From a virus: DNA of 21,816 nt. Under the pieces are notes generated by a model. The model did no database searches. It was given only the letters and a program-made list of their open reading frames with translations, and was not told the DNA's origin. The translations under genes and the position numbers were made by a program. The stretch is taken from positions 1 through 21,816 of the IMG/VR virus record IMGVR_UViG_3300002835_001252; one strand, given 5' to 3'. Shown piece after piece: positions 1 through 19,317 of the stretch (the first letter of the stretch is position 1; every line of letters starts with the position of its first letter).

Positions 1-2174
1 AAGTTCGCAGCCTCATCACTGGGCAATGTGGCGTCATATTCGCGTTGGAACTCTCCACCAATAGGAGAGCTTGCGCTGATGTTAGAAATATCCTGCTCTG
101 CATCGGCAATGGACTGGCGGATGGATTCCATAGATGCTTCACGCCTTGCCATGGCCTTGGGAGCCTTCATGTAGTCAAAGCCGTATTTAAGTCCTTCAAC
201 CCCGCTACCCAACATGCCGCCAACAATCAAAGCCTTGAAGCCATTGTTGACAATTTCAGATGTTGTAAGATTTGGATTGAACGTGGCCTGCTCTACAAAC
301 CCTTGACCAAGTTGTGCGATAAGTTCTTCAATACCCTCCACCGTGCCGCCGCCTATAACATTTGGCGTAAACCTATCTAGTTGAGCCTTAAAGGCTGGGG
401 TATTTAGCTTGGCCTTTATGGCATCTGGCCCCTCTCTAAACGGAGACTCGGAGCCTCTTTTGCCGCCAATAATTGTAACCGTTCCTTCAATTAATGCAGA
501 GAGTGCAGCGGGAAGCTGGGCCTCTTTGATTGCTTCTGCCCTAGCTTGGGTCGGTTCCATACCCCCATCGATCTTTTCTTTCTCCAAAGTCTGAATGGCC
601 GAAGAAAGAACTCCTCCGTAAGACTGGGCCATAACCGCACCGACAGAAGATCCAAAGCCGATATTGCTAACTGTCTTGGGCTTAAATCCCGCCTTTTTTG
701 CTCCAAACCCTACGGCACCACCCAAGCCTATTTGTACCCCCACTTGGAGTGCCCCGCTCGCAAGATCTTTAAAAATGGTAGGCCCGCCAATTTCTTGAGA
801 AATGCGCTCAAGCCTGTCAATCTCGTCACTGGTTTTGCTGGCTTCATCCAAGAATGGATCGGCAAACTTTTGCGCTCCCAAAACGGAAGCTGTTGCCCCA
901 ACAATCGTTTGACCAGCACCAAGAAACCCAAGAGCCTGTTGTCTGAGTCCAATACCAGTTTGAACGCCAGCTTTGGGAATGTTGCTCAACCATCCATCGT
1001 TGCGCCCCTTCCACTCGGCAATCTGGCGTTCTGGCGATACATCTTCAAGATTATTGTTTTTTACAAAGCTGTTAAATTCGCTGACGTTTTCTTTCAAAAA
1101 TGGGTATTCAATCTTTGCCGCTTCTTTTTGTAGTTGCGGGATTCCATTGATGGCCGTGCGCTTCTTGGAGTCAGAAATGTCAAGTGCTTCGATCTCGGCC
1201 CTGATTCCTTCGGCGTCCCACACATGGAGGGGGGAGATGCGGATCTCGTTGTTGACGATTCCGACCTTATTCGTTCCTTCAGCCAAATCCACCATGGCGC
1301 GGGCTTCGCGGAATAGGCGTCCTTTTTCGGGATCGTCTTGATTGAGGAGGGAATCCCGCAACTCATTAAATTCCTCGGCATCCGCTCCAGTTTCCAAAAG
1401 GAACTGATCTACTGTCTGCCCCTTGGCGAATGCCTGACTAATAACTTCTGCCGCATTGTTAATTTTGGTTTCGTTTTCCTTAAAGCGCCCCACATATTGA
1501 TTGGTCAGATCTTTCTCTTCCGCCTGATACTTAGCTTGAATAGCTGCCATTGCCTCCTTGCGCTTATCGGTATCTTCAATAGTTTGGGCTTGGGCGTATT
1601 CTTGTTCGGCGCGGGCATCGATATCATACAAAGCTTCTGCCGCTTGATCCCCAAACACCCCGCTACCACGGCGATCTTCGATGTAATCAATGCGGGCTTT
1701 CTTTTGCCTTTCGTTGAATTTCTCAATCTGGGGCTGAAGTTCCGCCACCTTGTTTTGTGCTGACTGCACGGAGAATCCCGAATTAAGAAGACTGTTCCAA
1801 GTAGTCTGTAACTCTTGCTCTTCTTCTGGGGTGCGCGTTTCCTTCGCTCCCAGTTCCTGATACCTTGCCCCTAATTGCTCATAGCCCTTGCGGGCATCGC
1901 TAAATTCCTTGGTTGTTTTATCCCAGCTAGAAAGAAGTTGCTTGTTGGGATCTTGCTCCTCTTTGGGGGTAGTAGTTTTATACTTGTCCCACCAATTGGC
2001 TTGCGGGGTATCTTCTGCTGGCTTGGCCTCTACGGGTTCGGGCTTGGGTTCAGGTGTGGACTTGTATTTGTCCCACCAATTTGCCTCTTGTGCTACTGAC
2101 TCGATTTCCCCTTCTTCTGGGGTAACGGCAGTGCCACTAGTTTTGTATTTGTCCCACCAGTTGCCATTCGCCAT
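1..2174 (-). CDS. Large phage internal/ejection-type protein, C-terminus cut by window edge
   Basis: An open frame starts at ATG 2174 and stays open to the left edge, giving 724 codons without a stop, so the C-terminal part lies outside the window. Residues 1-66 carry three copies of NWWDKYK (5-11, 32-38, 60-66) joined by P/E-rich linkers. Residues of about 70-260 are charged and probably coiled coil. From about residue 395 a Gly/Ala-rich, weakly hydrophobic stretch follows (GIGLRQQALGFLGAGQ, later GGAVGFGAKKAG), then an acidic segment with EELIAQLGQGF near 615-625. Short Trp-containing N-terminal repeats plus Gly/Ala-rich amphipathic segments are typical, to my knowledge, of very large phage virion proteins injected with the DNA (T7 gp16, N4-type or large polyvalent proteins). 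Any enzymatic domain would be in the missing part. It is last in the leftward block, 2 nt after the stop of the upstream gene. The reading frame is certain; the role is inferred. Confidence 0.8.
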   Translation of the reverse strand, partial: MANGNWWDKYKTSGTAVTPEEGEIESVAQEANWWDKYKSTPEPKPEPVEAKPAEDTPQANWWDKYKTTTPKEEQDPNKQLLSSWDKTTKEFSDARKGYEQLGARYQELGAKETRTPEEEQELQTTWNSLLNSGFSVQSAQNKVAELQPQIEKFNERQKKARIDYIEDRRGSGVFGDQAAEALYDIDARAEQEYAQAQTIEDTDKRKEAMAAIQAKYQAEEKDLTNQYVGRFKENETKINNAAEVISQAFAKGQTVDQFLLETGADAEEFNELRDSLLNQDDPEKGRLFREARAMVDLAEGTNKVGIVNNEIRISPLHVWDAEGIRAEIEALDISDSKKRTAINGIPQLQKEAAKIEYPFLKENVSEFNSFVKNNNLEDVSPERQIAEWKGRNDGWLSNIPKAGVQTGIGLRQQALGFLGAGQTIVGATASVLGAQKFADPFLDEASKTSDEIDRLERISQEIGGPTIFKDLASGALQVGVQIGLGGAVGFGAKKAGFKPKTVSNIGFGSSVGAVMAQSYGGVLSSAIQTLEKEKIDGGMEPTQARAEAIKEAQLPAALSALIEGTVTIIGGKRGSESPFREGPDAIKAKLNTPAFKAQLDRFTPNVIGGGTVEGIEELIAQLGQGFVEQATFNPNLTTSEIVNNGFKALIVGGMLGSGVEGLKYGFDYMKAPKAMARREASMESIRQSIADAEQDISNISASSPIGGEFQREYDATLPSDEAAN
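1977..2162 (-). repeat. Three NWWDKYK peptide repeats (27-28 residue spacing)
   Basis: Three near-identical heptapeptides NWWDKYK lie at residues 5-11, 32-38 and 60-66 of the large protein, spaced 27 and 28 residues apart. The DNA copies are similar (each reads close to TTGTCCCACCA on the plus strand), but the linkers differ. This looks like a tandem short linear motif kept by selection rather than a fresh DNA duplication. Confidence 0.85.
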
Positions 2175-8576: not shown

Positions 8577-11500
8577 ATGGCTGAACAACCACCCCTGAAC
8601 CGCTCCTATGTAATTTCGTATGCGGGTAATGACAGAGATTATCCTGTAATTGGACTAAGACTTGATCCCCGTGTTGCTGGATATCGGGTGCCAGAGGATC
8701 TAAGCCCACACCCAGATTCCAAGCGGTATCCCAACCATGTATTTACTGGATCACAGCCCTCCAATGGGGATGAACGGGTTACTCATGTCTATGAAATTCT
8801 TCCCGCTCCTTGGGTGCCCTTTACCCGCTACGATGATGATCTAGGCCCAGTTCAGGGACGTAGACGTTCGGTTAAAAATGAGGGTCAAGAAGCTGACTTA
8901 GCAGCAGATAAGAAGATTTCATATGAGGGGCGCGAGGGTTCCGCCATTGTTTCAAATGAGATTGAAGAGACTTGGTCGATCAAGGTTGATGAAGATGGAA
9001 ATTCCCTGTTCCCAATTAAGGATCGGGATTTTTATGATGCCTCTCGTGGAGCCGTCCAAGAACGCCGTCAGCTTTTTGTCCCCACAGGAGAGGAGGTTGG
9101 AACGCTAGAGAATGTTGGTGGAGTTATTACCCAAACCTCCTACGAACCCTACAACGAATTTCTTTCAGTCAAGGTTGTCCAGACCTACAAGGTGGATGGG
9201 CCTCAATTAATTGGCAATACAACCGATAATGATGGCCAGCTAGTCACTATAACAACCCAACGAAAAGCGGCCCTAGATTACGTCCCGCCCAATCCCACGG
9301 CAACCAGAACGGTTGAGATTTCACGCGAAGACGCCGAATCCCTGATTGAGCGCATTATTGATACGCCAGAAGTTTTCAAAGCCGATACATTTTCCGTAGA
9401 ACGTCCCGATCCCATTCCACAGAAGTTTCGCGTTGCGGTTCCCATTAGATCTTCGCAAGAAGTCGTGGAGGGAGTGGCTGAGATTCCAACACTTGAAGAA
9501 GGAGAAATTTCTCGCTCTGAAGAACAGCGCAATAAATTCCTAAAACGGGTATCGGCAACATCGCGAGACCAAACGGTTCTTCCACAAACGTTAATTCAAA
9601 AATCAACAAATAACGAAAGACAGGAAGTAACGGTTACGGAAACGCTGCAATCTGGAGACACTGAAGAAGTTGCAACCGCAACAAAAACCATTGAAAGCGA
9701 GGCGCTTGGTGATGGTAATTATGTGGTTCGTAAAACAGAGATTCCAGAAGTGTTTGCTGGAGAAATTTATAGGAAAACAAAAGAAGACCTAACTCCGCAA
9801 AAATTCCGCGCCTCACAAGAAGAGGATATTTTTGAAGAAACCATTGAGGGAACAGCAGAATCCCCAACACTTGGTTCTGGAGAATTTGCAAAAAGCGAAC
9901 AACAGGTAGACAAGTTCACCAAGCGTATTTCTACAACTTTTAGAGATATCGAAGTAGCCACATCTCTTGATGAAGAGGTTGTTACCCCAGAGGGGATTGT
10001 CGCCAAAAGAACACTTAGGCTATCAAAAGATCCACAATCTATCAATCCTGATGAAAAACTTATTGATGGATCTATCGAAGCCTTGGGTGATGGAAGAACT
10101 ATTAAAACAGAGGTTAGGGTTCCAAAAATATTTGCCGCAACCACATTTTCTGTTGAGCGTCCAGACGCAGTACCTCAAAAGTTTAGGGTCTCTGTACCAG
10201 TAACCACAAAACAAGAAACAATTGTTGGAAACGCAGAAGAACCTAGCCTTGGAGAAGGAGAGATCACAAAATCCGAACAGCAAACAACTGAATTTTTAAA
10301 GAGGATATCCACATCTTCAAGAGACAAAACACAACTTCCCAAAACGCTTACCCAGAAAACAACCACCAATGAGGGCCAGTTGGCCACAGTTGAGGAGAAA
10401 CTACAACAGGGGGACACACTTGAGCAGCCAAGCGCCACCAAGACCATCGAAAGTGAGGCTGTTGGCGATGGAACCTATATCGTAAGAAAAACAGAAGTTC
10501 CTAAAATTTTTGCTGGCGCTTCATTCCGAGTCACGAAAGCCGACCTTACTCCAGAGAAGTTCAGAGCATCGCAAGAAGACGTTGTCAAAGAGGAAACAGT
10601 TGCTGGCAATGCGGAGCAACCAGCTTTATCCGAGGGAGAGTTTGCCAAAACTGAACAGCAAATTACTGAATTCGTTAAGCGGATATCAACTACCAAAAGA
10701 TCAACAGAAGAGGCTCAAGAACTGACGGAAAGCGTTCTTACTAACGATGGTCAAATAGGAGTCAGAAAGCTTACACTTTCTGATGGGCCTCAAGAAATAG
10801 AAGAATCTGAACTTGTAGTAGACGCCAGTATTGAGGCGCTAGGTGATGGAAGAACCATTAAGACAGAAGTTAAAGTTCCAGAAGTATTTGATGCCCGTGT
10901 GCTTTCGGTGGAGAGGCCAGATACCACACCAGCAAAGTTTAGGGCAAGCGTTCCAGTTAAAACCGAACAGTTTACCGAGAAAGGGGCCATTACTGAACCA
11001 GTCCTTCAAGATGGCGATCTTTCAAAATCAGAACAACAACAAACGAAATATGTAAAACGTGTTTCTACTTCTTCAAGAGATCAGACCAAGCTTCCGTCTT
11101 CTCTTGAACAAAAAACCACCAACGAATTTAAACAGGTGGTCAACATTAAAGAAACGCTGCAAAATGGCGACACATCCGTCGAGCCAACAGCCACAAAGAC
11201 AGTTGAAAGTGAAGCCCTTGGTAACGGGAACTATGTTGTAAGGACTTCTGAGGTAGACGATTTCTTTAGGGCAAAGTCTTTTTCTGTGGAATCGCCAGAT
11301 GTTGTTCCTGTAAAATTTCGTTCCAAATCACCCACCGAAACAACGCAAGAAATTATCGAGGGAGATGCGGAACTCCCATCATTGAGTGATGGGGAAATTG
11401 CAAAATCAGAGCAACAGCAAGACGAATTTCTAAAAAGAATTTCAACTACCACACGCGACAAAACACAGTTACCAGTTTCTCTTTTTCAAAAAACAACCAC

Positions 11501-14500
11501 CAACGATGGGCTTTTGGCAATCGTTACAGAAACGCTAAAAAACAGCGATACATCTGAACAGCCAAGCGCAAGGAAAACAGTAGAAAGTGAAGCTATTGGT
11601 GACGGGCTTTATGTCGAACGAATCACCAATCTTCCTAAGATTTTCGACGGAACCTCTTTCACTGTTGAAGCGCCCGATGTTCTTCCTGCAAAGTTCAGGG
11701 CAAAAATTAAAACACTTACCGAGCAAAAAACCGTTGAAAAGCTGGTAGCGGCTACCCCAACTCTTGCCACTGGAGATCTTTCCAAGACCGAACAAAGGGT
11801 CACCGAATTTCTTGTCAGAGAAACAAAGATCTCCAGAGATCTATCCCAAGAAGAATCACTGTCACAAAAAACAACAAACGAAAACCTACAGCTTGCCACA
11901 GTTACTGAGACGCTCCAGAAAACAGACACAACTGAGCAACCAACAGCAACCAAAACTGTAGAAAGCGAGAATCTTGGTGATGGGAATTACGTTATAAGGG
12001 TAACACAAGTTGACAAGCTTTTTGAGGCCAAATCCCTGTCTGAGGAAAAGACTGACACCATTCCAGCAAAATTCAGGGCTGATATCCCGACCAAAACCGA
12101 GCAGACAAACATAGAAGGAACGGCCCCAGAACCCGCGCTTTCAAGCGATGATATATCGGTTACCAATCAACAGATCAACGACAGGGTATACCGAGAAACC
12201 AAGGTTTTCCGCACAAGTTCTTCTTTCCCATCTTTAACCCAAAAATCCACCACTAACGAAAAACAACTGGCCACAGTTACCGAAAGCATTTCGGATAGTG
12301 ACACTTCAGAATCCCCGTCAGCAACCAAAGATGTTCAGAGCGAAGCCCTTGGTGATGGCAAGTACCTTATCAGAACAACCGAGGTTGCGAATGTTTTCCC
12401 AGCAAAAAGCGTTAGGGCATCCAAGCTGGATTTAACGCCAGAGAAATTCAAAGCCAAGGAAACGTCCAATACCGTTGAAACAACACAAGAGGGTTCTGAC
12501 ATACCAGAAAGTATTACGCTTGGGAATGGAGAATTTGAAAAATCCGAACAACAAATTAGTGAGTTTGTTAAGCGGGTTTCCACTACATCTCGCCAAACAG
12601 AAACAACCTCCATCCTTGAAGAAAGGGTTGTAACGGGCGAGGGACAGGTTGCCATTAGAACGCTTACCCTTTCCAAAGGAGCACAGGATATCCAATCAGA
12701 TCCACTATTGGTAGATGGCTCTATTGAGGAGTTGGGAGATGGTAGAACTGTTAAAACAGAAGTTAGGGTTGGTTCGGTGTTTGACGCCAAGCAAGAATCC
12801 CGACAAAAACCCGAAGTAATCCCTCCCGAATTTAGGGCCGCACTTACTGATAATACCACAGTAACAACCAAAGAGGGAAAAGAGACGGCTGTTTCTTTGG
12901 AGGATGATGAAGTTGCCAAATCTATTCAACGGATCACTGAAGACAAAATTCGTGAATCTGTTACAGTTCGGGCGCAAGGGCCATACCCATCCCTGACCGA
13001 GTCCATTGTAGATAATGACGGGTTGGTTATCACCAGAGTTAAAACACTTGTTGATGGAGATCAGCAAATAAGCCCTTCGGCAACAACTAGCGGACAGGTA
13101 CAGGCGTTGGGTGATGGGTACACCCTTAAAACAGAAGACACTAAGCCCAAGGTGTTTCGTGGTAACATGTTTAGCCAAGAGAAACCCGATAACGTTCCTG
13201 TCGAGTTCCGAGCAGAAAAGCCAGCAACTACCGAAGAGTTTTCCGAAGAAGGTGAGGCGGCTGAAGTTGCTCTTGCGAATGATGAAATATCTAAATCCGA
13301 GCAACAAGTTACGGAATTTGTCAAAAGAACCAGAAAAACTACCAGAGATATAGTTGGTGGAGTAACACTCAGTAATGGAAGGCAAATAGACGAAGATGGA
13401 ATCAAGGTAACTGTAACGAGAACCCTTGCCCAAGGATCTCAGGAAGTTACCCCCTCTGCCAAAGTCAGAGGAAGTGTTGAGGATATTGGTGACGGGAAAA
13501 CAATCAAGACCGAGCTAACCCGCGAAAAAGTTTTTGAAGGACAAACCTATTCTCGCGAGAAACCAGATAACATTCCCGCAGAATTTAGGGCCGAGAAACC
13601 CTCTTTAGTGGATGAAAAAATTATTGAGGGAGAGGTGGAGATACCAGAACTTGAAGGAGACGAACTTGCCAAGAGCGAGCAGCAAATTACAGAATTTCTT
13701 AAACGCATAAGAACAACAACAAGAGAAAATGTTGATACTGTTGAGCTTACTGGAGAACAAACAGATCAGAACAAGCAAAAGGTTACTATTAAAAGAACGC
13801 TCAGTAAAAGCGCACAGTCAATTACGCCATCCGCGAGAATAAGCGGAGATGTCCAATCTTTAGGAGACGGTTATACAATTAAAACCGAACAAGAAGTACC
13901 AACAACATTTGATCAAAAGTCTTTTTCTAGAACAAAACCAGACACAACGCCAGCAAAGTTCAGGGCAACAATACCAACACTTGTTGAAGAAACCACATTT
14001 GAAGATTCATCGTTGGAAGAATCAGATGTAAGCCTTTCAAGCAACGAAATATCCAAATCCATACAACGGATTGATGTTTTTACACAGCGTCAAAGAATTG
14101 AATCAAGAGACGAGATAGAAGACCAACAGCTTGTCGGCGGCAAGATTTTTACAACAGAGCTAAATGGCGGAATTGCTGAAATAATTGAAGAGTATTCTTC
14201 CGACTCTAGTGAGATTCCTGTTGAGCTTGGAACTATATCCTCCGAAGTTGAAAACATAGGTGACAATAAGTTTGTAAAAAGATCTGTTAAACTTGCGGAA
14301 CTTTCAGAACTTTCTGGAACGGTATACGATGAACAGTTTAACATTCAAATTCCATATACAAGAACCATTGTTAGTGCGAACGAAGAACAAAATCTTGCTC
14401 AAAGCGCCGAACTCACGCCAAGAGATTCGGTTCACTCACTAAAAACCATTTATAATAATGATGAAGCAATAAGCGTATTGCTTGAAAAATATATTCAGGC

Positions 14501-15212
14501 AGCAGAAGTTGTAAATATATCGCTTCCAGACACTCTTTTAAGTATTAAATTAATTGAGAATTTTTCAACGGAAGAAGACAGTAGTTCTCCAAGATCTTCA
14601 TTGATTGAAGGATCATCAGTTGATTTTACATTAGTTGTAGACTTAAAATACACCGCAGAACCAGTTGTCAAAATAAAAAAGGGTTACTCTGGGCCAGCAG
14701 AAGCGGTTCGCCATTATTTCTTTCTAAAAGAAGACAATTGCAACATAGGTGCTATTCTAGAAAAAACATCATCACAAAGATGGCCAGTATTTAAACCGCA
14801 AGATACAGAATTTGTAATAAACATTCAAAAATTTCAAACAAATGACAGGTTTTCATTTTCTCTACCAGACAACAAACAACAATATGTCGATCAAAATAAT
14901 TCCGTTTCACAGTTACGAATAGAAGTGCCAAACACACTCCACGACATAGTAATACCAGATCTTCCAAATGACCCTAAATTCTTTTTCAAATCAGACAAAT
15001 TGACCCTTATAAAAGATGACGGCTCAAGAGAAACCATAAACTTATCGTCTTCTGCATCCATTGAAACATCCTTGGTATATCAAGACCGCGCCCGCACATC
15101 ACCAACAGAAATACCATCAGGAAATTATCTTTATAGCTGTTCTGTTACACCATACAAATATGGACTTATGAGAGTTGAAGCCGTTACCATAGATCTCAAC
15201 AAATACAAATGA
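8577..15212 (+). CDS. Giant tandem-repeat tail-fibre/adhesin-type protein
   Basis: The protein has 2211 residues, starting at ATG 8577 in a TATATG context without SD. Residues 1-270 are a unique N-terminal region with conserved-looking segments (RSYVISYAGNDRDYPVIG, HVYEILPAPWVPFTRYDD, GREGSAIVSNEIEETWS); I recall similar N-termini in other environmental phage structural proteins, which suggests a virion anchor. Residues 272-1782 are twelve copies of a domain repeating every 125-128 residues, then one degenerate copy (1783 to about 1920). Residues of about 1920-2211 form a unique C-terminal region (RHYFFLKEDNCNIGAILEK, YLYSCSVTPYKYG), probably the distal knob. The repeats are rich in Thr, Glu, Lys and Ser, with no Cys, Trp or His that I could find. 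The next gene overlaps as ATGA. Size, repeats and neighbours favour a long receptor-binding shaft. A secreted adhesin-like or decoration role cannot be excluded. Confidence 0.85.
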   Translation: MAEQPPLNRSYVISYAGNDRDYPVIGLRLDPRVAGYRVPEDLSPHPDSKRYPNHVFTGSQPSNGDERVTHVYEILPAPWVPFTRYDDDLGPVQGRRRSVKNEGQEADLAADKKISYEGREGSAIVSNEIEETWSIKVDEDGNSLFPIKDRDFYDASRGAVQERRQLFVPTGEEVGTLENVGGVITQTSYEPYNEFLSVKVVQTYKVDGPQLIGNTTDNDGQLVTITTQRKAALDYVPPNPTATRTVEISREDAESLIERIIDTPEVFKADTFSVERPDPIPQKFRVAVPIRSSQEVVEGVAEIPTLEEGEISRSEEQRNKFLKRVSATSRDQTVLPQTLIQKSTNNERQEVTVTETLQSGDTEEVATATKTIESEALGDGNYVVRKTEIPEVFAGEIYRKTKEDLTPQKFRASQEEDIFEETIEGTAESPTLGSGEFAKSEQQVDKFTKRISTTFRDIEVATSLDEEVVTPEGIVAKRTLRLSKDPQSINPDEKLIDGSIEALGDGRTIKTEVRVPKIFAATTFSVERPDAVPQKFRVSVPVTTKQETIVGNAEEPSLGEGEITKSEQQTTEFLKRISTSSRDKTQLPKTLTQKTTTNEGQLATVEEKLQQGDTLEQPSATKTIESEAVGDGTYIVRKTEVPKIFAGASFRVTKADLTPEKFRASQEDVVKEETVAGNAEQPALSEGEFAKTEQQITEFVKRISTTKRSTEEAQELTESVLTNDGQIGVRKLTLSDGPQEIEESELVVDASIEALGDGRTIKTEVKVPEVFDARVLSVERPDTTPAKFRASVPVKTEQFTEKGAITEPVLQDGDLSKSEQQQTKYVKRVSTSSRDQTKLPSSLEQKTTNEFKQVVNIKETLQNGDTSVEPTATKTVESEALGNGNYVVRTSEVDDFFRAKSFSVESPDVVPVKFRSKSPTETTQEIIEGDAELPSLSDGEIAKSEQQQDEFLKRISTTTRDKTQLPVSLFQKTTTNDGLLAIVTETLKNSDTSEQPSARKTVESEAIGDGLYVERITNLPKIFDGTSFTVEAPDVLPAKFRAKIKTLTEQKTVEKLVAATPTLATGDLSKTEQRVTEFLVRETKISRDLSQEESLSQKTTNENLQLATVTETLQKTDTTEQPTATKTVESENLGDGNYVIRVTQVDKLFEAKSLSEEKTDTIPAKFRADIPTKTEQTNIEGTAPEPALSSDDISVTNQQINDRVYRETKVFRTSSSFPSLTQKSTTNEKQLATVTESISDSDTSESPSATKDVQSEALGDGKYLIRTTEVANVFPAKSVRASKLDLTPEKFKAKETSNTVETTQEGSDIPESITLGNGEFEKSEQQISEFVKRVSTTSRQTETTSILEERVVTGEGQVAIRTLTLSKGAQDIQSDPLLVDGSIEELGDGRTVKTEVRVGSVFDAKQESRQKPEVIPPEFRAALTDNTTVTTKEGKETAVSLEDDEVAKSIQRITEDKIRESVTVRAQGPYPSLTESIVDNDGLVITRVKTLVDGDQQISPSATTSGQVQALGDGYTLKTEDTKPKVFRGNMFSQEKPDNVPVEFRAEKPATTEEFSEEGEAAEVALANDEISKSEQQVTEFVKRTRKTTRDIVGGVTLSNGRQIDEDGIKVTVTRTLAQGSQEVTPSAKVRGSVEDIGDGKTIKTELTREKVFEGQTYSREKPDNIPAEFRAEKPSLVDEKIIEGEVEIPELEGDELAKSEQQITEFLKRIRTTTRENVDTVELTGEQTDQNKQKVTIKRTLSKSAQSITPSARISGDVQSLGDGYTIKTEQEVPTTFDQKSFSRTKPDTTPAKFRATIPTLVEETTFEDSSLEESDVSLSSNEISKSIQRIDVFTQRQRIESRDEIEDQQLVGGKIFTTELNGGIAEIIEEYSSDSSEIPVELGTISSEVENIGDNKFVKRSVKLAELSELSGTVYDEQFNIQIPYTRTIVSANEEQNLAQSAELTPRDSVHSLKTIYNNDEAISVLLEKYIQAAEVVNISLPDTLLSIKLIENFSTEEDSSSPRSSLIEGSSVDFTLVVDLKYTAEPVVKIKKGYSGPAEAVRHYFFLKEDNCNIGAILEKTSSQRWPVFKPQDTEFVINIQKFQTNDRFSFSLPDNKQQYVDQNNSVSQLRIEVPNTLHDIVIPDLPNDPKFFFKSDKLTLIKDDGSRETINLSSSASIETSLVYQDRARTSPTEIPSGNYLYSCSVTPYKYGLMRVEAVTIDLNKYK
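9390..13922 (+). repeat. Twelve tandem 126-residue (378-bp) protein repeats
   Basis: Units start at codons 272, 398, 524, 650, 776, 902, 1028, 1154, 1279, 1407, 1532 and 1658; a degenerate 13th starts at 1783. The anchor K/E-F-R/K lies at residues 283, 409, 535, 661, 787, 913, 1039, 1165, 1290, 1418, 1543, 1669 and 1794: seven consecutive steps of exactly 126, then 125, 128, 125, 126, 125. Consensus motifs in order are FSVERPD, P-x-KFRA, EG-A-E-P-L, GE-AKSEQQ-x-x-EF-KR-STT-RD, QKTT-NEGQ, ETL, SATKT, ESEALGDG-YV-R and P-VF. DNA copies are well diverged while the protein pattern is kept. Confidence 0.95.
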
Positions 15213-15985
15213 ATTACGAAAATCCATTTAATCAACAGATTTCAGAACAGCAAATTATTCAAAAAATAAAATCTGAGATTGTTTCGATTGTTAACAATGA
15301 AATTTTAAAACTTAAACAAGAATTAAAATCTGAGCTGAAAGAAAGCGAAACAACAACAACCAAGAAAAAACCATACACTGTCTTCTCATCAGAAGATATG
15401 GTAATAAAAAATTACAACAATAATGTTGGGCTTTTTAATTATACAATCACCCCTCCAGAATCAATCGCAAATAACCCAAATGTAAATTTTAATGAAAAAA
15501 TTTCCTCAATTTATGCTCAAGTAAAATTCTTTTCTCCGAATCCTCATATTCTTGGTTTAAGAGATGGAAAATTTTATTGGATTGAAGATGATTGTGTTGA
15601 TTTGACACTTTACAAAAAAACAGACGGAACACCACCAAATGAATCTCAACAGATTTGGATTAGCGCTGGTACCGTGGCTGGAGGAATCCCAGAAGGACTT
15701 GATCCATCTTATGGAAAATATCTTGCCGATTCAGGTTCTGGTAATGCATGGGTAGAGGTAAATATAGATGGAAATACTGGAGAAATTGTTTCTGTTGCTG
15801 TTGCTGGCGGCGGTTCAACCCCGCAAAATACAAACACATCTTTTTACCTAACTCTTGGATACTATGAATACAATGGCGACTCTCCTAGTATTACAAACTA
15901 TGGTTGCGGAAGCGTCGAAGTAACAGTTTGCCGAAATTGGTTTGCGGCTGAATCTCCATTTTATGGAGTAACATTTAATAGGTAA
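15209..15985 (+). CDS. Coiled-coil plus beta-rich fibre-tip/adaptor protein
   Basis: The protein has 258 residues. Its ATG overlaps the TGA of the giant gene as ATGA, so it is translated in step with it. Residues of about 10-50 form a clear coiled coil (IIQKIKSEIVSIVNNEILKL then KQELKSELKES), suited to trimerisation. After a Thr/Lys linker a beta-rich region follows (FNEKISSIYAQVKFFS, GKFYWIEDDCVDLTLYKK), with Gly/Ser-rich turns (VAVAGGGSTP) and a C-terminus with three Cys (DDC earlier, YGCGSVEVTVC). This is the usual build of a small phage fibre component that follows the main shaft gene. It is AT-rich compared with the left and right blocks. No specific family is recognised; an alternative is a chaperone or adhesin for the shaft. 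Confidence 0.7.
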   Translation: MNYENPFNQQISEQQIIQKIKSEIVSIVNNEILKLKQELKSELKESETTTTKKKPYTVFSSEDMVIKNYNNNVGLFNYTITPPESIANNPNVNFNEKISSIYAQVKFFSPNPHILGLRDGKFYWIEDDCVDLTLYKKTDGTPPNESQQIWISAGTVAGGIPEGLDPSYGKYLADSGSGNAWVEVNIDGNTGEIVSVAVAGGGSTPQNTNTSFYLTLGYYEYNGDSPSITNYGCGSVEVTVCRNWFAAESPFYGVTFNR

Positions 15986-16008: not shown

Positions 16009-17277
16009 ATGGCTGGTAATTTTACCCCAAACTCTACTTGTGATTGTTGTCAAAAACCGCCAGACGTTGACATTGGATTTGAATTTGAAACAAGAACCTT
16101 TTATGGAGACATTCCATGTTGGGCTGGGTCTGATAGTTTTGGTGTTAAGTACGGAACCCAAAAAACCATATCCCCAAGAACAACAAAAACGGAAAATGTT
16201 GAACTTTTAGGGACATTCGATAGAACGCAGAGTCCAAATTGCTCATATAGTCGTGAATGTTCACCATATTCTTTTTCTGAACAGGCAACTACTACTACTA
16301 CTACTACTTATGCTGGACAACAGTTAGGTGGAGCTTTTTATACAGAAGGTGGCGGAAGCGGAACGACAACAACACAATTCTCAAGAAGTGTTGTTGTCAC
16401 AGATGACTGTCAACTGTTAGTAAATAGCATTTTTGTAAGCACAGATCCAAATGCTGGATACAGCACAAGTTCTTATGAAGAAAGCAACACAAATTGCTCT
16501 GGTATGGTTCAATATACAGTATTAAATTCAGATGACCCAGATTATCAAGTTAGTTGTGAAGGAAATTTTGTTTCTGTAAATAATCAGGGATGTTTTTTTG
16601 ACATTCAATGTGATAATGACACCGCAGGAAATATTGGTTCTTTAGCTATGGGGCAAACTACTTCAACAACGCAGATTGGGGCAAGCGCAGCATTGGGATC
16701 GCCCATAACATTTGAATATTCGGGTCAAATAAGTCCAATTACTTCAGAGGGAAATACATTTGGTGTTTACGACGATATGGATTCTTTACAATACACAATA
16801 TCAAGCGCAGTAAGTGCTTATAATGCCGCTTATCCAAGTGGTGAATTTCAAAAAAGCGTCACAAAATATCGTTTAGTTCACCAACCATCAGTAACCTGTT
16901 ATTTAAAAGTCTGGATAAAAAGAGTTACAGTTTGTTCGGTGGGTGAGGACGAATCCGAAGAAGAGGATATGTTGGAATATGAGTGGACAGGAGCGTCTAC
17001 TAATGGAAAATTGTGTTTAGACCCTCCATTTTCAAGCGGTTTTCCTTCAGCTATTAGTATACCTCCAGAATCTTGGAAGAATAACAAAATAGAATCTACT
17101 TTTTCAGGAGAACTTTCCCCTGAATCAGCGGCTGGGCAAACTTGTTCTGTATATTTACAAATATTTAAATATTCTTTTTTAAAAGACTACGAACCCAACG
17201 ATCCAAATGAGTTTGGCAATCAAGGATGCAAACCAAATGGATATCCAGATCCACTGTGTGGTGTTCAGCCAATATAA
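16009..17277 (+). CDS. Cys-rich beta protein of the fibre module
   Basis: The protein has 422 residues. It begins MAGNFTPNSTCDCCQKPPD, with Cys at 11, 13 and 14, and has about 19 cysteines spread along the chain (PNCSYSRECS, DDCQLL, GCFFDIQCD, VTCYLKVW, VTVCSV, GCKPNGYPDPLC). The rest is Thr/Ser/Gly-rich with beta-strand alternation, including a poly-Thr run from about seven ACT codons at 16288-16308, and one acidic patch (EDESEEEDMLEYEW). No known fold is recognised. Position after the shaft and coiled-coil proteins suggests a receptor-binding tip or decoration protein. Many cysteines suggest zinc binding or disulfides formed after release. The contrast with the Cys-free repeats of the giant protein is notable. 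No signal peptide is seen. Confidence 0.7.
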   Translation: MAGNFTPNSTCDCCQKPPDVDIGFEFETRTFYGDIPCWAGSDSFGVKYGTQKTISPRTTKTENVELLGTFDRTQSPNCSYSRECSPYSFSEQATTTTTTTYAGQQLGGAFYTEGGGSGTTTTQFSRSVVVTDDCQLLVNSIFVSTDPNAGYSTSSYEESNTNCSGMVQYTVLNSDDPDYQVSCEGNFVSVNNQGCFFDIQCDNDTAGNIGSLAMGQTTSTTQIGASAALGSPITFEYSGQISPITSEGNTFGVYDDMDSLQYTISSAVSAYNAAYPSGEFQKSVTKYRLVHQPSVTCYLKVWIKRVTVCSVGEDESEEEDMLEYEWTGASTNGKLCLDPPFSSGFPSAISIPPESWKNNKIESTFSGELSPESAAGQTCSVYLQIFKYSFLKDYEPNDPNEFGNQGCKPNGYPDPLCGVQPI

Positions 17278-17281
17278 ATTA

Positions 17282-17692
17282 ATGAGTAAAAATAATAAAC
17301 ACTTATTTAATTTTAGGACATCGGCATGCGGACAATGTAATTGTGGAATAGATAAATCTGACCCTTGTTCAATTTGCCCACTAAAAAAATGGGGAACACA
17401 TCCGACTTGTAACAAAAACACGCACTTAAAAAGTCATCCTAAAATAAGCTTTGAACTACCAACCAATTCACAAATGGCGAAATCTGTTGTTGGTTCTTTG
17501 TCAAAATGGGTCGGAGGGGGTTTCAAACAGGTGCAAGAAAAAGAATTTGATCAACGCTTATCACATTGTAAGCAATGTGAATTTTGGAATTCTAAAGGAT
17601 TTAACAATTCTGGAAGATGCATGAAGTGCGGATGCTCAACTTGGATTAAGCTTCGCATGGCTACCGAAAAGTGCCCTATTGGCAAATGGTAG
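17282..17692 (+). CDS. Zinc-ribbon protein with DUF6171-like C-terminus
   Basis: The protein has 136 residues. I chose ATG 17282 (MSKNNKHLFNF), 4 nt after the previous stop, because the earlier ATG at 17207 would overlap the 422-residue gene by 71 nt. Twelve cysteines form two groups: ACGQCNC, DPCSIC and PTC near residues 16-43, and SHCKQC, GRCMKCGC and EKCPIGKW in the last 45 residues. The second group (CxxC...CxxCGC....K.....CPxGKW) is a recurring phage zinc-ribbon signature that I associate with DUF6171. It often lies beside tail-fibre or glycan-modification genes, but its function is unknown. Here it closes the fibre module and overlaps the convergent gene by 17 nt. Confidence 0.75.
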   Translation: MSKNNKHLFNFRTSACGQCNCGIDKSDPCSICPLKKWGTHPTCNKNTHLKSHPKISFELPTNSQMAKSVVGSLSKWVGGGFKQVQEKEFDQRLSHCKQCEFWNSKGFNNSGRCMKCGCSTWIKLRMATEKCPIGKW

Positions 17693-17978
17693 TTTTTGGC
17701 CTGACAAATACCATCTCTCTAGTTTTACCACTGTAATCAATTTTTTTCTTGGTTGATTCCACCATATCTTTAGATATAAGGTCGAACATTGCCTGTCTTG
17801 ACAAACCAACCTCTTTGGCGGCAAGGATAGCAAGCTTCCATCCGTCTGCCTCCATATCTTCTGTAGTGGTCTTGGTTCGAGATTCCTTGAAAGAATCCCA
17901 TACACTATCCCAAGATTGAACTACAATTTTAGGAGAGGAGCCTTTTGCTCTACGAGTTTTGCTATGTGTTGTTTCCAT
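17676..17978 (-). CDS. Small winged-helix/HTH candidate protein
   Basis: The protein has 100 residues, starting at ATG 17978. Its start overlaps the end of the phosphoesterase by 58 nt, which is long for this genome; an internal Met (MEADGWKLAILAAKEVGLS) would be an alternative start. Residues of about 42-70 (DGWKLAILAAKEVGLSRQAM) look like the first helices of a winged helix: Trp, then helix, then G-L-S turn, then recognition helix. A basic stretch and a beta-like wing follow (SGKTREMVFVRPK). It is the last gene of the right leftward block and meets the zinc-ribbon gene tail to tail. A DNA-binding regulator is the best guess. Confidence 0.5.
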   Translation of the reverse strand: METTHSKTRRAKGSSPKIVVQSWDSVWDSFKESRTKTTTEDMEADGWKLAILAAKEVGLSRQAMFDLISKDMVESTKKKIDYSGKTREMVFVRPKTTICQ

Positions 17979-18718
17979 GAGAATGTGCCTTTGTCTACGG
18001 TGAATGTGATAAAACCAAAGTCTACTTTACCAGAACAGCGTCTGGCTCCGAATTTGCTCCCTGCTCCCTGAAGGGCGGGGGTTGTCATGGCAATCCAGTC
18101 TGGGCCTCCCGCAAAGTTGTGGTAGTGGACATGGCTACGAATCAAAACGTCAGCCTTGGTTTGCTCTCCCTCTGCTGCGAGGATTGAGTTCCAGAGACGG
18201 TCTTTAGCTACTCCTGTATGCCGTCCATGAGGTAAGGAGGAACTTCCTGCTGGGTGGTGTTTAAGATCGAAGACAATTCCTTCGACTTCAACCCACGCAT
18301 GGTCGGTTACTGTAGCCCCGACTCGTTCTGCGATAATATTCTCCCAGTCTTCTCCATCACTGGAACTCACATGATACGGAGTTCCTCTAGTGAGAACGAT
18401 CTTGCAATTCTTGGTCTTGGGCACCATGCGAATGATCTTGGTGGCCATATCCGCTTGATCCTCCATATCAGGGGCCAGAAGCTCCGTAGAGCCACTTTTC
18501 TTACCCTTACCGTCCACCAGATCCCCGTTGACGAAAACAATATCGTAGGGGCCATTGCGGGTAATTTCGCGGGCATACCATGTCCAGTGGGCTTTATTGA
18601 TCTGTGCCCAGAGTGGGATTTCCCCATTTTCATCTTTTTCGGGCAACCAGCCTGTAGGGGTAAGCCCGACACGATGGCCGCAGTGGAAGTCCGATAGGAC
18701 TGCTATTTTTTTGCTCAT
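17921..18718 (-). CDS. Calcineurin-like metallophosphoesterase
   Basis: The protein has 265 residues from ATG 18718, which overlaps the upstream TGA as ATGA; the in-frame start at 18751 adds 11 residues that do not fit the fold. Metal-binding motifs are present: D10-x-H12 in VLSDFHCGH, G65-D66...D69 in VNGDLVDG, H154-H155, and S195-H196-V197-H198-Y199-H200. The usual GNH(D/E) motif is replaced by RGTPYH (111-116), as I recall from a group of phage phosphoesterases. Such enzymes hydrolyse phosphodiesters or phosphomonoesters with two metal ions. The substrate is unknown; phage members may act in DNA processing or nucleotide turnover. It is coupled to the nucleotide-metabolism fusion protein upstream. 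Confidence 0.85.
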   Translation of the reverse strand: MSKKIAVLSDFHCGHRVGLTPTGWLPEKDENGEIPLWAQINKAHWTWYAREITRNGPYDIVFVNGDLVDGKGKKSGSTELLAPDMEDQADMATKIIRMVPKTKNCKIVLTRGTPYHVSSSDGEDWENIIAERVGATVTDHAWVEVEGIVFDLKHHPAGSSSLPHGRHTGVAKDRLWNSILAAEGEQTKADVLIRSHVHYHNFAGGPDWIAMTTPALQGAGSKFGARRCSGKVDFGFITFTVDKGTFSWKQHIAKLVEQKAPLLKL

Positions 18719-19317
18719 AGAGAGGTTGCTTGGTTGCAGAGATCTAAACACCGCGCATAGCCGCAGATATCGGCCACGCTGTCACGATGACGGGGTGAGT
18801 TGGTGAGTCTGGAAAGCTTAACCGCAATCATGCACATGGCGATTTGTTGCGGGGTCACATTGGTTCCAAGGATGGCTCCCCACATCTTGGCTTGCTTGGT
18901 AAAGTCTTCAATGGGGCTTCCGTAGTCGGTTTGGCGATCATAGGAAGTAAGGCGCTTGGCAATGTCGCAAACATCTTCTTTGTCCAACCTAACCATAGAA
19001 GGGTAAATACGCAAGGGTTTTTCCAGCCATTGGGCTACGGCGACTTCCGCTCTGGCTCCCTTGGACTTCTCCCACTTGGGAAGAAGAACCAACTCGTCGC
19101 ATTCAAAGACCGCATCAATATCCCTTCGGGCACAGTCTTCAATGAACTTGCTGTCCATTTGGGAGTTGTGGGGATCTAATCCAAGATCTTGATCCATCCT
19201 TGCTGGATTGATCACTTTGTGTCCCGCCTTCATTAGAGCTTCTTCAGCTTCAAAAAAGGCAGGATGGTTGAGGTTCTTGTGACCGCGCATAGGGCCACAG
19301 ATGTATACTGTAGTCAT
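18715..19317 (-). CDS. DUF4406-DUF6378 fusion (nucleoside deoxyribosyltransferase-like)
   Basis: The protein has 200 residues. Residues 1-115 match DUF4406, a nucleoside 2-deoxyribosyltransferase-like fold: VYICGPMRG at the start, then GHKVINPA, then ARRDIDAVFECDELVLLPKW followed by SKGARAEVAVA, where the Glu corresponds to the usual catalytic position. Residues of about 130-200 match the DUF6378 signature common in phages: DRQTDYGSPIEDFTK, then VTPQQIAMCMIAVKLSRL, then HRDSVADICGYA. DUF6378 is all-helical and I suspect a MazG-like NTP-pyrophosphohydrolase relation, which is inference. The two domains are often separate genes in phages; here they are one chain. Likely role: handling modified or excess nucleotides during phage DNA synthesis. 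The phosphoesterase follows by ATGA overlap. Confidence 0.8.
   Translation of the reverse strand: MTTVYICGPMRGHKNLNHPAFFEAEEALMKAGHKVINPARMDQDLGLDPHNSQMDSKFIEDCARRDIDAVFECDELVLLPKWEKSKGARAEVAVAQWLEKPLRIYPSMVRLDKEDVCDIAKRLTSYDRQTDYGSPIEDFTKQAKMWGAILGTNVTPQQIAMCMIAVKLSRLTNSPRHRDSVADICGYARCLDLCNQATSL

Follow-up and report, generated by a model that had tools for sequence, protein, structure and literature searches.

The Repeat Array

The virus record IMGVR_UViG_3300002835_001252 of IMG/VR comprises 21,816 nucleotides, which were analysed at full length and are referred to here as the window. On its plus strand, an open reading frame at 8577–15212 codes for a protein of 2211 residues, relatives of which were identified on 55 other IMG/VR contigs, and which is proposed here to be a fibre. 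With a unit profile, 13 full copies of one domain were identified at residues 263–1905 (9363 to about 14291), each scoring 130–170 bits. They are preceded by an N-terminal part of 262 residues (8577–9362, plus strand), the proposed virion anchor, and are followed by a C-terminal module of 309 residues and the stop codon (14283–15212, plus strand), the proposed distal end.

All units are read from the plus strand. Units 1 (9363–9740), 2 (9741–10118), 3 (10119–10496), 4 (10497–10874), 5 (10875–11252), 6 (11253–11630), 7 (11631–12008) and 11 (13143–13520) consist of 126 residues each, units 8 (12009–12383), 10 (12768–13142) and 12 (13521–13895) of 125 residues, and unit 9 (12384–12767) of 128 residues; unit 13 is located at 13896–14282. 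The phenylalanine of the anchor motif [KE]F[RK][AVS] is found at residues 283, 409, 535, 661, 787, 913, 1039, 1165, 1290, 1418, 1543, 1669 and 1794. The steps between these positions are 126 residues seven times in a row, then 125, 128, 125, 126 and 125, exactly the series given in a first-pass annotation of the window, and the unit lengths stay within 125–128 residues. The count of twelve domains in that annotation has to be corrected to thirteen, in agreement with both the anchors and the profile copies. In addition, a weak half unit was identified by the unit profile at about residues 205–246, inside the N-terminal part, and a similar weak match is present in many relatives. The N-terminal part may therefore end in a very divergent copy of the unit.

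The period is also evident from the autocorrelation of the protein with BLOSUM62 scores, which peaks at lags of 252, 126, 504, 378 and 630 residues, with values of +0.46 at lag 252 and +0.44 at lag 126. The best-lag value in 200 shuffled sequences was -0.53 ± 0.02, with a maximum of -0.46, so that the observed value lies far outside this distribution. Cys, Trp and His are absent from the whole repeat region, as had been noticed before. The pairwise DNA identity among the units of the window is 39–61%, which agrees with the strong divergence of the copies described in the first-pass annotation and rules out a recent duplication. Since the units are too diverged in their DNA, and since independent contigs agree with each other, an assembly artefact or collapse was also ruled out.

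Unit Number in the Relatives

The N-terminal 262 residues are 71–94% identical (median 80%) in 56 loci on the 55 other contigs, and this conservation holds whatever sequence comes after residue 262. This part could putatively attach to the virion. Downstream of it, 0 to 8 units were identified in the relatives, in most of them 1 to 8 that are complete or nearly so; the distant locus L003 has 9 units and the window 13, its array being the longest among all loci examined. When the window (13 units) and L003 (nine) are included in the tally, a single unit is present in 23 loci, two in 11, three in five, four in six, six in three, seven in one and eight in four (one contig being counted twice). 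Near-duplicate contigs were counted separately, and these tallies do not represent natural frequencies. L002 and L005 are located on one contig. Two loci are without a complete unit. L028 contains a broken unit only, and in L050:1886-3904 the N-terminal sequence is partly duplicated and followed directly by a C-terminal module. In the family as a whole, the spacing from unit to unit is 123–131 residues over 108 steps.

Additional distant loci with one to five units, L069, L093, L094, L096, L097 and L098, were identified when subtype-2 units and the start of L003 were used as queries. In L094 and L096, a start like that of L003 is fused to a remainder of the anchor like that of the window. Among 50,697 phage records, neither the protein of the window nor the distant fibre L003 had a match. 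A search with the C-terminus of the window as the query also gave no match.

Evolution of the Units

A tree was calculated from 134 units and 125 columns, in which many forks remained unresolved. Units 1, 3 and 5–8 of the window belong to one subtype (subtype 1), units 2, 4 and 9 to a second, unit 10 to a third, and units 11 and 12 to a fourth. Unit 13 sides with the terminal units, the subtype adjoining the C-terminal module, at a weakly supported fork. The subtypes are common to different phages, and their order, 1, 2, 3, 4 and terminal, is largely kept. Units 1, 4, 5, 6, 7, 8 and 9 of the window pair in the tree with units 1, 2, 3, 4, 5, 6 and 7 of L002, respectively. This pairing implies that L002 lacks a pair of units which is present in the window, and that the units predate the split of these phages. 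The distal units 10–12 of the window group with units of L006 and L021. The simplest reading of the tree is that units are gained or lost in blocks, as in the two-unit difference between the window and L002, and that the distal part is exchanged, as indicated by the grouping of units 10–12 with those of L006 and L021.

For orthologous units, dN/dS ratios of 0.02–0.35 were obtained where dS was not saturated; several pairs were saturated. The comparison of dN to dS had been proposed with the first-pass annotation, in which it was argued that the length of the unit is kept by selection. Both the ratios and the narrow spacing in the family bear this out, and the sequences indicate that the units are under purifying selection, with length and sequence constrained and copy number free.

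Predicted Structure and Database Searches

An AlphaFold2 monomer model was obtained for units 3–5 of the window with 67 unit triples, with a pLDDT of 92 and a pTM of 0.57. Each unit is predicted to consist of a short strand, a helix turn and a strand, followed by three hairpins at about residues 48–67, 76–97 and 108–126, giving an all-beta domain with eight strands in about 126 residues. This pattern recurs at +126 and +252, so that the sequence period coincides with that of the predicted strands; a period unrelated to the predicted structure, which would have refuted the first-pass reading, was thus not observed. For L016:6855-8999, a relative with one unit, the full-length protein was modelled well in its unit, mostly well in the C-terminal module and poorly in the N-terminal part.

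When the three-unit model was compared with 350,542 PDB chains by Foldseek, the best match had an E-value of 0.46, with TM scores of at most about 0.2. A search with sequence profiles against the PDB gave nothing credible. The window protein had no match in Pfam, and in the 67 unit triples no immunoglobulin, fibronectin or shaft family recurred. Matches to COMMD1_N, GPS2_interact, DUF7765 and other Pfam entries (best E-value 5e-5) were rejected, as they were inconsistent between the members of the family and mostly involved helical or charged low-complexity models. In PHROGs, the window protein matched two marginal families of unknown function, phrog_7073 (E-value 0.0016, residues 913–960) and phrog_27818; these matches were short or marginal, were reproduced by 0 of 61 family members, and were treated as chance. 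In BFVD, a library of viral structures, a single match was obtained, to A0A6J5RCY2, which covered the whole three-unit model (E-value 1.1e-16, probability 1.00, TM score 0.58 normalised to the query, 18% identity). A0A6J5RCY2 is an uncharacterised protein of 728 residues from an uncultured Caudovirales phage, long enough for an anchor, a tip and one or two units between them; it adds no function to the family. The 126-residue unit is thus undescribed in the sequence and fold libraries searched. In the first-pass annotation, the shaft of same-length domains could not be assigned to any known fold, and a profile search for a known shaft family and a search for fold matches had been suggested as checks on this view; both leave it standing.

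It is possible that the unit represents a new fold. The unit may also be a known shaft fold, immunoglobulin-like or an intertwined trimeric beta structure, which was missed by the monomer prediction or by Foldseek. Eight predicted strands in about 126 residues would suit such a domain, and the low content of aliphatic and aromatic residues in the units is in line with it as well; since fibres are usually trimers, the true core could be missing from a model of the monomer. However, with a pLDDT of 92 the best PDB match remained at an E-value of 0.46 and a TM score of about 0.1, and immunoglobulin-like domains normally yield many matches, whereas neither the fold comparison of the monomer model nor the Pfam search of the unit triples recovered an immunoglobulin-like or fibronectin-like sandwich. 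A known fold is therefore considered unlikely, although it is the best surviving of the alternatives discussed here.

The C-Terminal Module and the Downstream Genes

The units are followed by C-terminal modules of about 255–340 residues, of which at least three unrelated kinds were identified. They form three clusters of 44, 9 and 3 loci without detectable similarity to each other, and the module of the window type can be aligned across 44 relatives. Among the relatives, this module is exchangeable.

Downstream of the fibre gene, a second and a third gene are located, followed by a conserved metallophosphoesterase gene on the opposite strand. In the window, the second gene (15209–15985, plus strand) codes for a protein of 258 residues, a proposed accessory or tip protein, the distal half of which is common to 12 other loci; its first approximately 118 residues are not. 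The third gene (16009–17277, plus strand) codes for a Cys-rich protein of 422 residues with weak local matches to four relatives only, and is a candidate for a hypervariable tip or receptor-binding protein. With a threshold of 50% coverage in both directions, the genes in the second place belong to 11 families in 52 loci and those in the third place to 28 families in 50 loci. The metallophosphoesterase (17921–18751, minus strand; Pfam Metallophos) was identified at 53 loci with a median identity of 71%, and it closes the variable island as a flank and is not a part of the fibre. Three unrelated C-terminal clusters together with a hypervariable third gene are typical of host-recognition cassettes, and as judged from the sequences the layout is that of a receptor-recognition cassette, with a conserved anchor, a stalk of variable length and an exchangeable tip.

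Another Cys-rich protein is encoded at 17207–17692 (plus strand). It ends with CKQCEFWNSKGFNNSGRCMKCGCSTWIKLRMATEKCPIGKW and matches phrog_13558, a family of unknown function (E-value 1.4e-11). A protein with a similar ending comes after the fibre cassette in L003 (16012–16623). At 18715–19317 (minus strand), a DUF4406 domain, which is nucleoside 2-deoxyribosyltransferase-like, is fused to a DUF6378 domain.

Genome Context

In G001, a relative of 72.8 kb with the same cassette, a scaffold-like protein and a giant ejection-like protein were identified along with a match to the PHROG terminase. Two further genes of this genome code for a tailspike of the pectate-lyase type and for a collagen-containing tail fibre (L062:3-2327 and L061:16196-19543). 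Among the open reading frames scanned in the window and in G001, no genes for a tail tube or a tape measure were recognised, and those scanned in G001 likewise gave none for a long tail or a major tail protein. The PHROG terminase was matched in five relatives, and the terminase family PF03237 was not found in the 12 relatives searched. The virus, one of aquatic bacteria, is an uncultured tailed phage, probably a podovirus with a genome of about 70 kb. An assignment to the N4-like phages was considered on the basis of the genomes of about 70 kb and of a weak match of the giant protein to virion RNA polymerase, and was not retained because the matches were weak and inconsistent in position.

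In a search for the host, neither the N-terminal anchor nor a capsid-like protein of a relative had a match in GTDB genomes, and the same capsid-like protein and the neighbour of 324 residues had no match among the 50,697 phage records. At the edge of the window (3–2174, minus strand), a cut protein of 724 residues begins with three NWWDKYK motifs. In the homologous place, ITFLDEE occurs three times in L002, and IEYLDD/IEYIEEE is found in L059. A short, lineage-specific motif is repeated here at the N-terminus of a giant ejection-like protein.

Proposed Function

It is proposed that the 2211-residue protein is a receptor-recognition fibre, located on the tail or forming an equivalent appendage of the virion, with a varying copy number of its units; a probability of about three in four is given to this reading. 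The conserved N-terminal region of about 260 residues would anchor the protein to the virion or the tail. The 13 all-beta units in series would form a stalk, putatively rod-shaped, the number of units setting its reach, and the C-terminal module would carry or dock the tip which contacts the host. Accessory or tip proteins would be provided by the small second and third genes of the cassette, the third being hypervariable. The receptor may be recognised either by the distal module or by the products of these genes. The comparison of relatives supports an evolution of the cassette in which whole units are gained or lost in blocks and the distal end is swapped, while purifying selection holds the length and sequence of the units; the tip would be renewed by recombination. 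A signal peptide is not apparent in the sequence of the fibre protein.

Several points weigh against this proposal. The location of the protein on the virion is one that we infer, and a convincing homology to any characterised fibre family was found neither in Pfam, PHROGs and the PDB nor among the 50,697 phage records. The three-unit model is beta-rich and repetitive, and its pTM of 0.57 indicates low confidence in the arrangement of the domains relative to each other. In the model of L016, the confidence of the N-terminal part is mostly 30–70, so that it provides no reliable model of the anchor. With a tailspike and a collagen-containing tail protein in the same genomes, these phages may carry several adhesins, and receptor binding may be the task of a different protein. 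The podovirus reading is tentative as well, since it was derived from the lack of recognisable long-tail genes and from the giant ejection-like protein, without a positive marker.

The presence of other tailspike and tail-fibre genes in the same genomes would also be compatible with a virion appendage that has no part in receptor recognition, for instance a neck whisker, a head decoration or a scaffold holding other adhesins, and in which variation in length might be nearly neutral. Moreover, a module that can be aligned in 44 relatives is less variable than would be expected of a pure receptor-binding tip. Still, three unrelated clusters of C-termini and a hypervariable third gene next to them make an appendage of this kind improbable.

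It is more improbable still that the C-terminal module inserts its beta-hairpins into membranes as a device that assists in penetrating the outer membrane, at a reach determined by the stalk. This idea arises from the C-terminal region of about 300 residues in the model of L016, which contains two predicted pairs of beta-hairpins of about 20 residues, and for which the top Foldseek matches were pore-state structures of MACPF and gasdermin proteins (best E-value 1.3e-3, probability at most 0.97). The TM score of these matches is only about 0.1, and any long curved four-stranded sheet would match such entries, so that they probably reflect the generic shape of a long sheet. Neither a MACPF signature, as judged by eye, nor a Pfam match was found, the strands contain many Ser, Thr and Ala residues, and a trimeric tip would be a simpler explanation.

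Of the fibre or ruler domain considered in the first-pass annotation, the fibre is retained and the ruler is dropped: the giant size of the protein, its fixed period and its variable copy number would suit a tape measure fixing the length of the tail, but this is highly improbable because the units are all-beta hairpins present in 0–13 copies behind similar anchors, whereas tape-measure proteins are helical and encoded beside tail-tube genes, because neither a major tail protein nor a tape measure was recognised among the scanned reading frames of G001, and because the exchange of C-terminal modules and the hypervariable neighbour do not fit a ruler.

Comparison to Known Systems

The reason for the length of a phage fibre can rarely be tested, since length usually changes together with everything else. 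If the proposed function is correct, close relatives differ mainly in the length of the stalk and in the tip, and dozens of related phages with an anchor of about 80% identity, differing by whole numbers of domains, represent a natural length series. Since the unit is without a described family or a solved relative, a single structure would be enough to annotate an entire group of uncultured phages, which are without relatives in the phage records searched.

A close parallel is provided by the Periscope Proteins, adhesins of the bacterial surface whose repeats are SHIRT, Rib, G5-E or Big_6 domains (PMC8201768). Like the protein described here, they have a conserved attachment end, a stalk of repeated domains and a distal binding domain, the number of repeats varies by an order of magnitude, and the copy number is thought to set the reach (PMC8201768). 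A number of tandem domains which differs between close relatives is also found here, with 0–13 units. The repeats of the Periscope Proteins are nearly identical (at least 80%, with 82–100% for adjacent SHIRT domains), and their number changes quickly (PMC8201768). In contrast, the units of the window share 39–61% of their DNA sequence and belong to a viral gene, the phage units keep the order of their subtypes, and the domain is unrelated to the Periscope repeats by sequence and by fold search. It is tentatively suggested that the unit adopts a new beta fold and that its copy number of 0–13 acts as an evolvable setting for the reach of an adhesin, a viral counterpart of the Periscope Proteins; this is regarded as distinctly less certain than the assignment as a fibre.

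Among phages, the layout of anchor, shaft and tip is shared with modular tail fibres that have a conserved N-terminus, for example the fibre module of the Alteromonas schitovirus A5 (PMC10579305) and the lateral fibres of the T5-like phage DT57C (PMC10713586). A distal part which is exchanged horizontally and small genes adjoining the fibre gene are also described for such fibres (PMC10579305, PMC10713586). The difference from such modular fibres is that the shaft consists here of one recurring domain in 0–13 copies, without similarity to the phage records searched. The modular layout of the fibre is thus known, and the new element is an undescribed shaft domain with a variable copy number.

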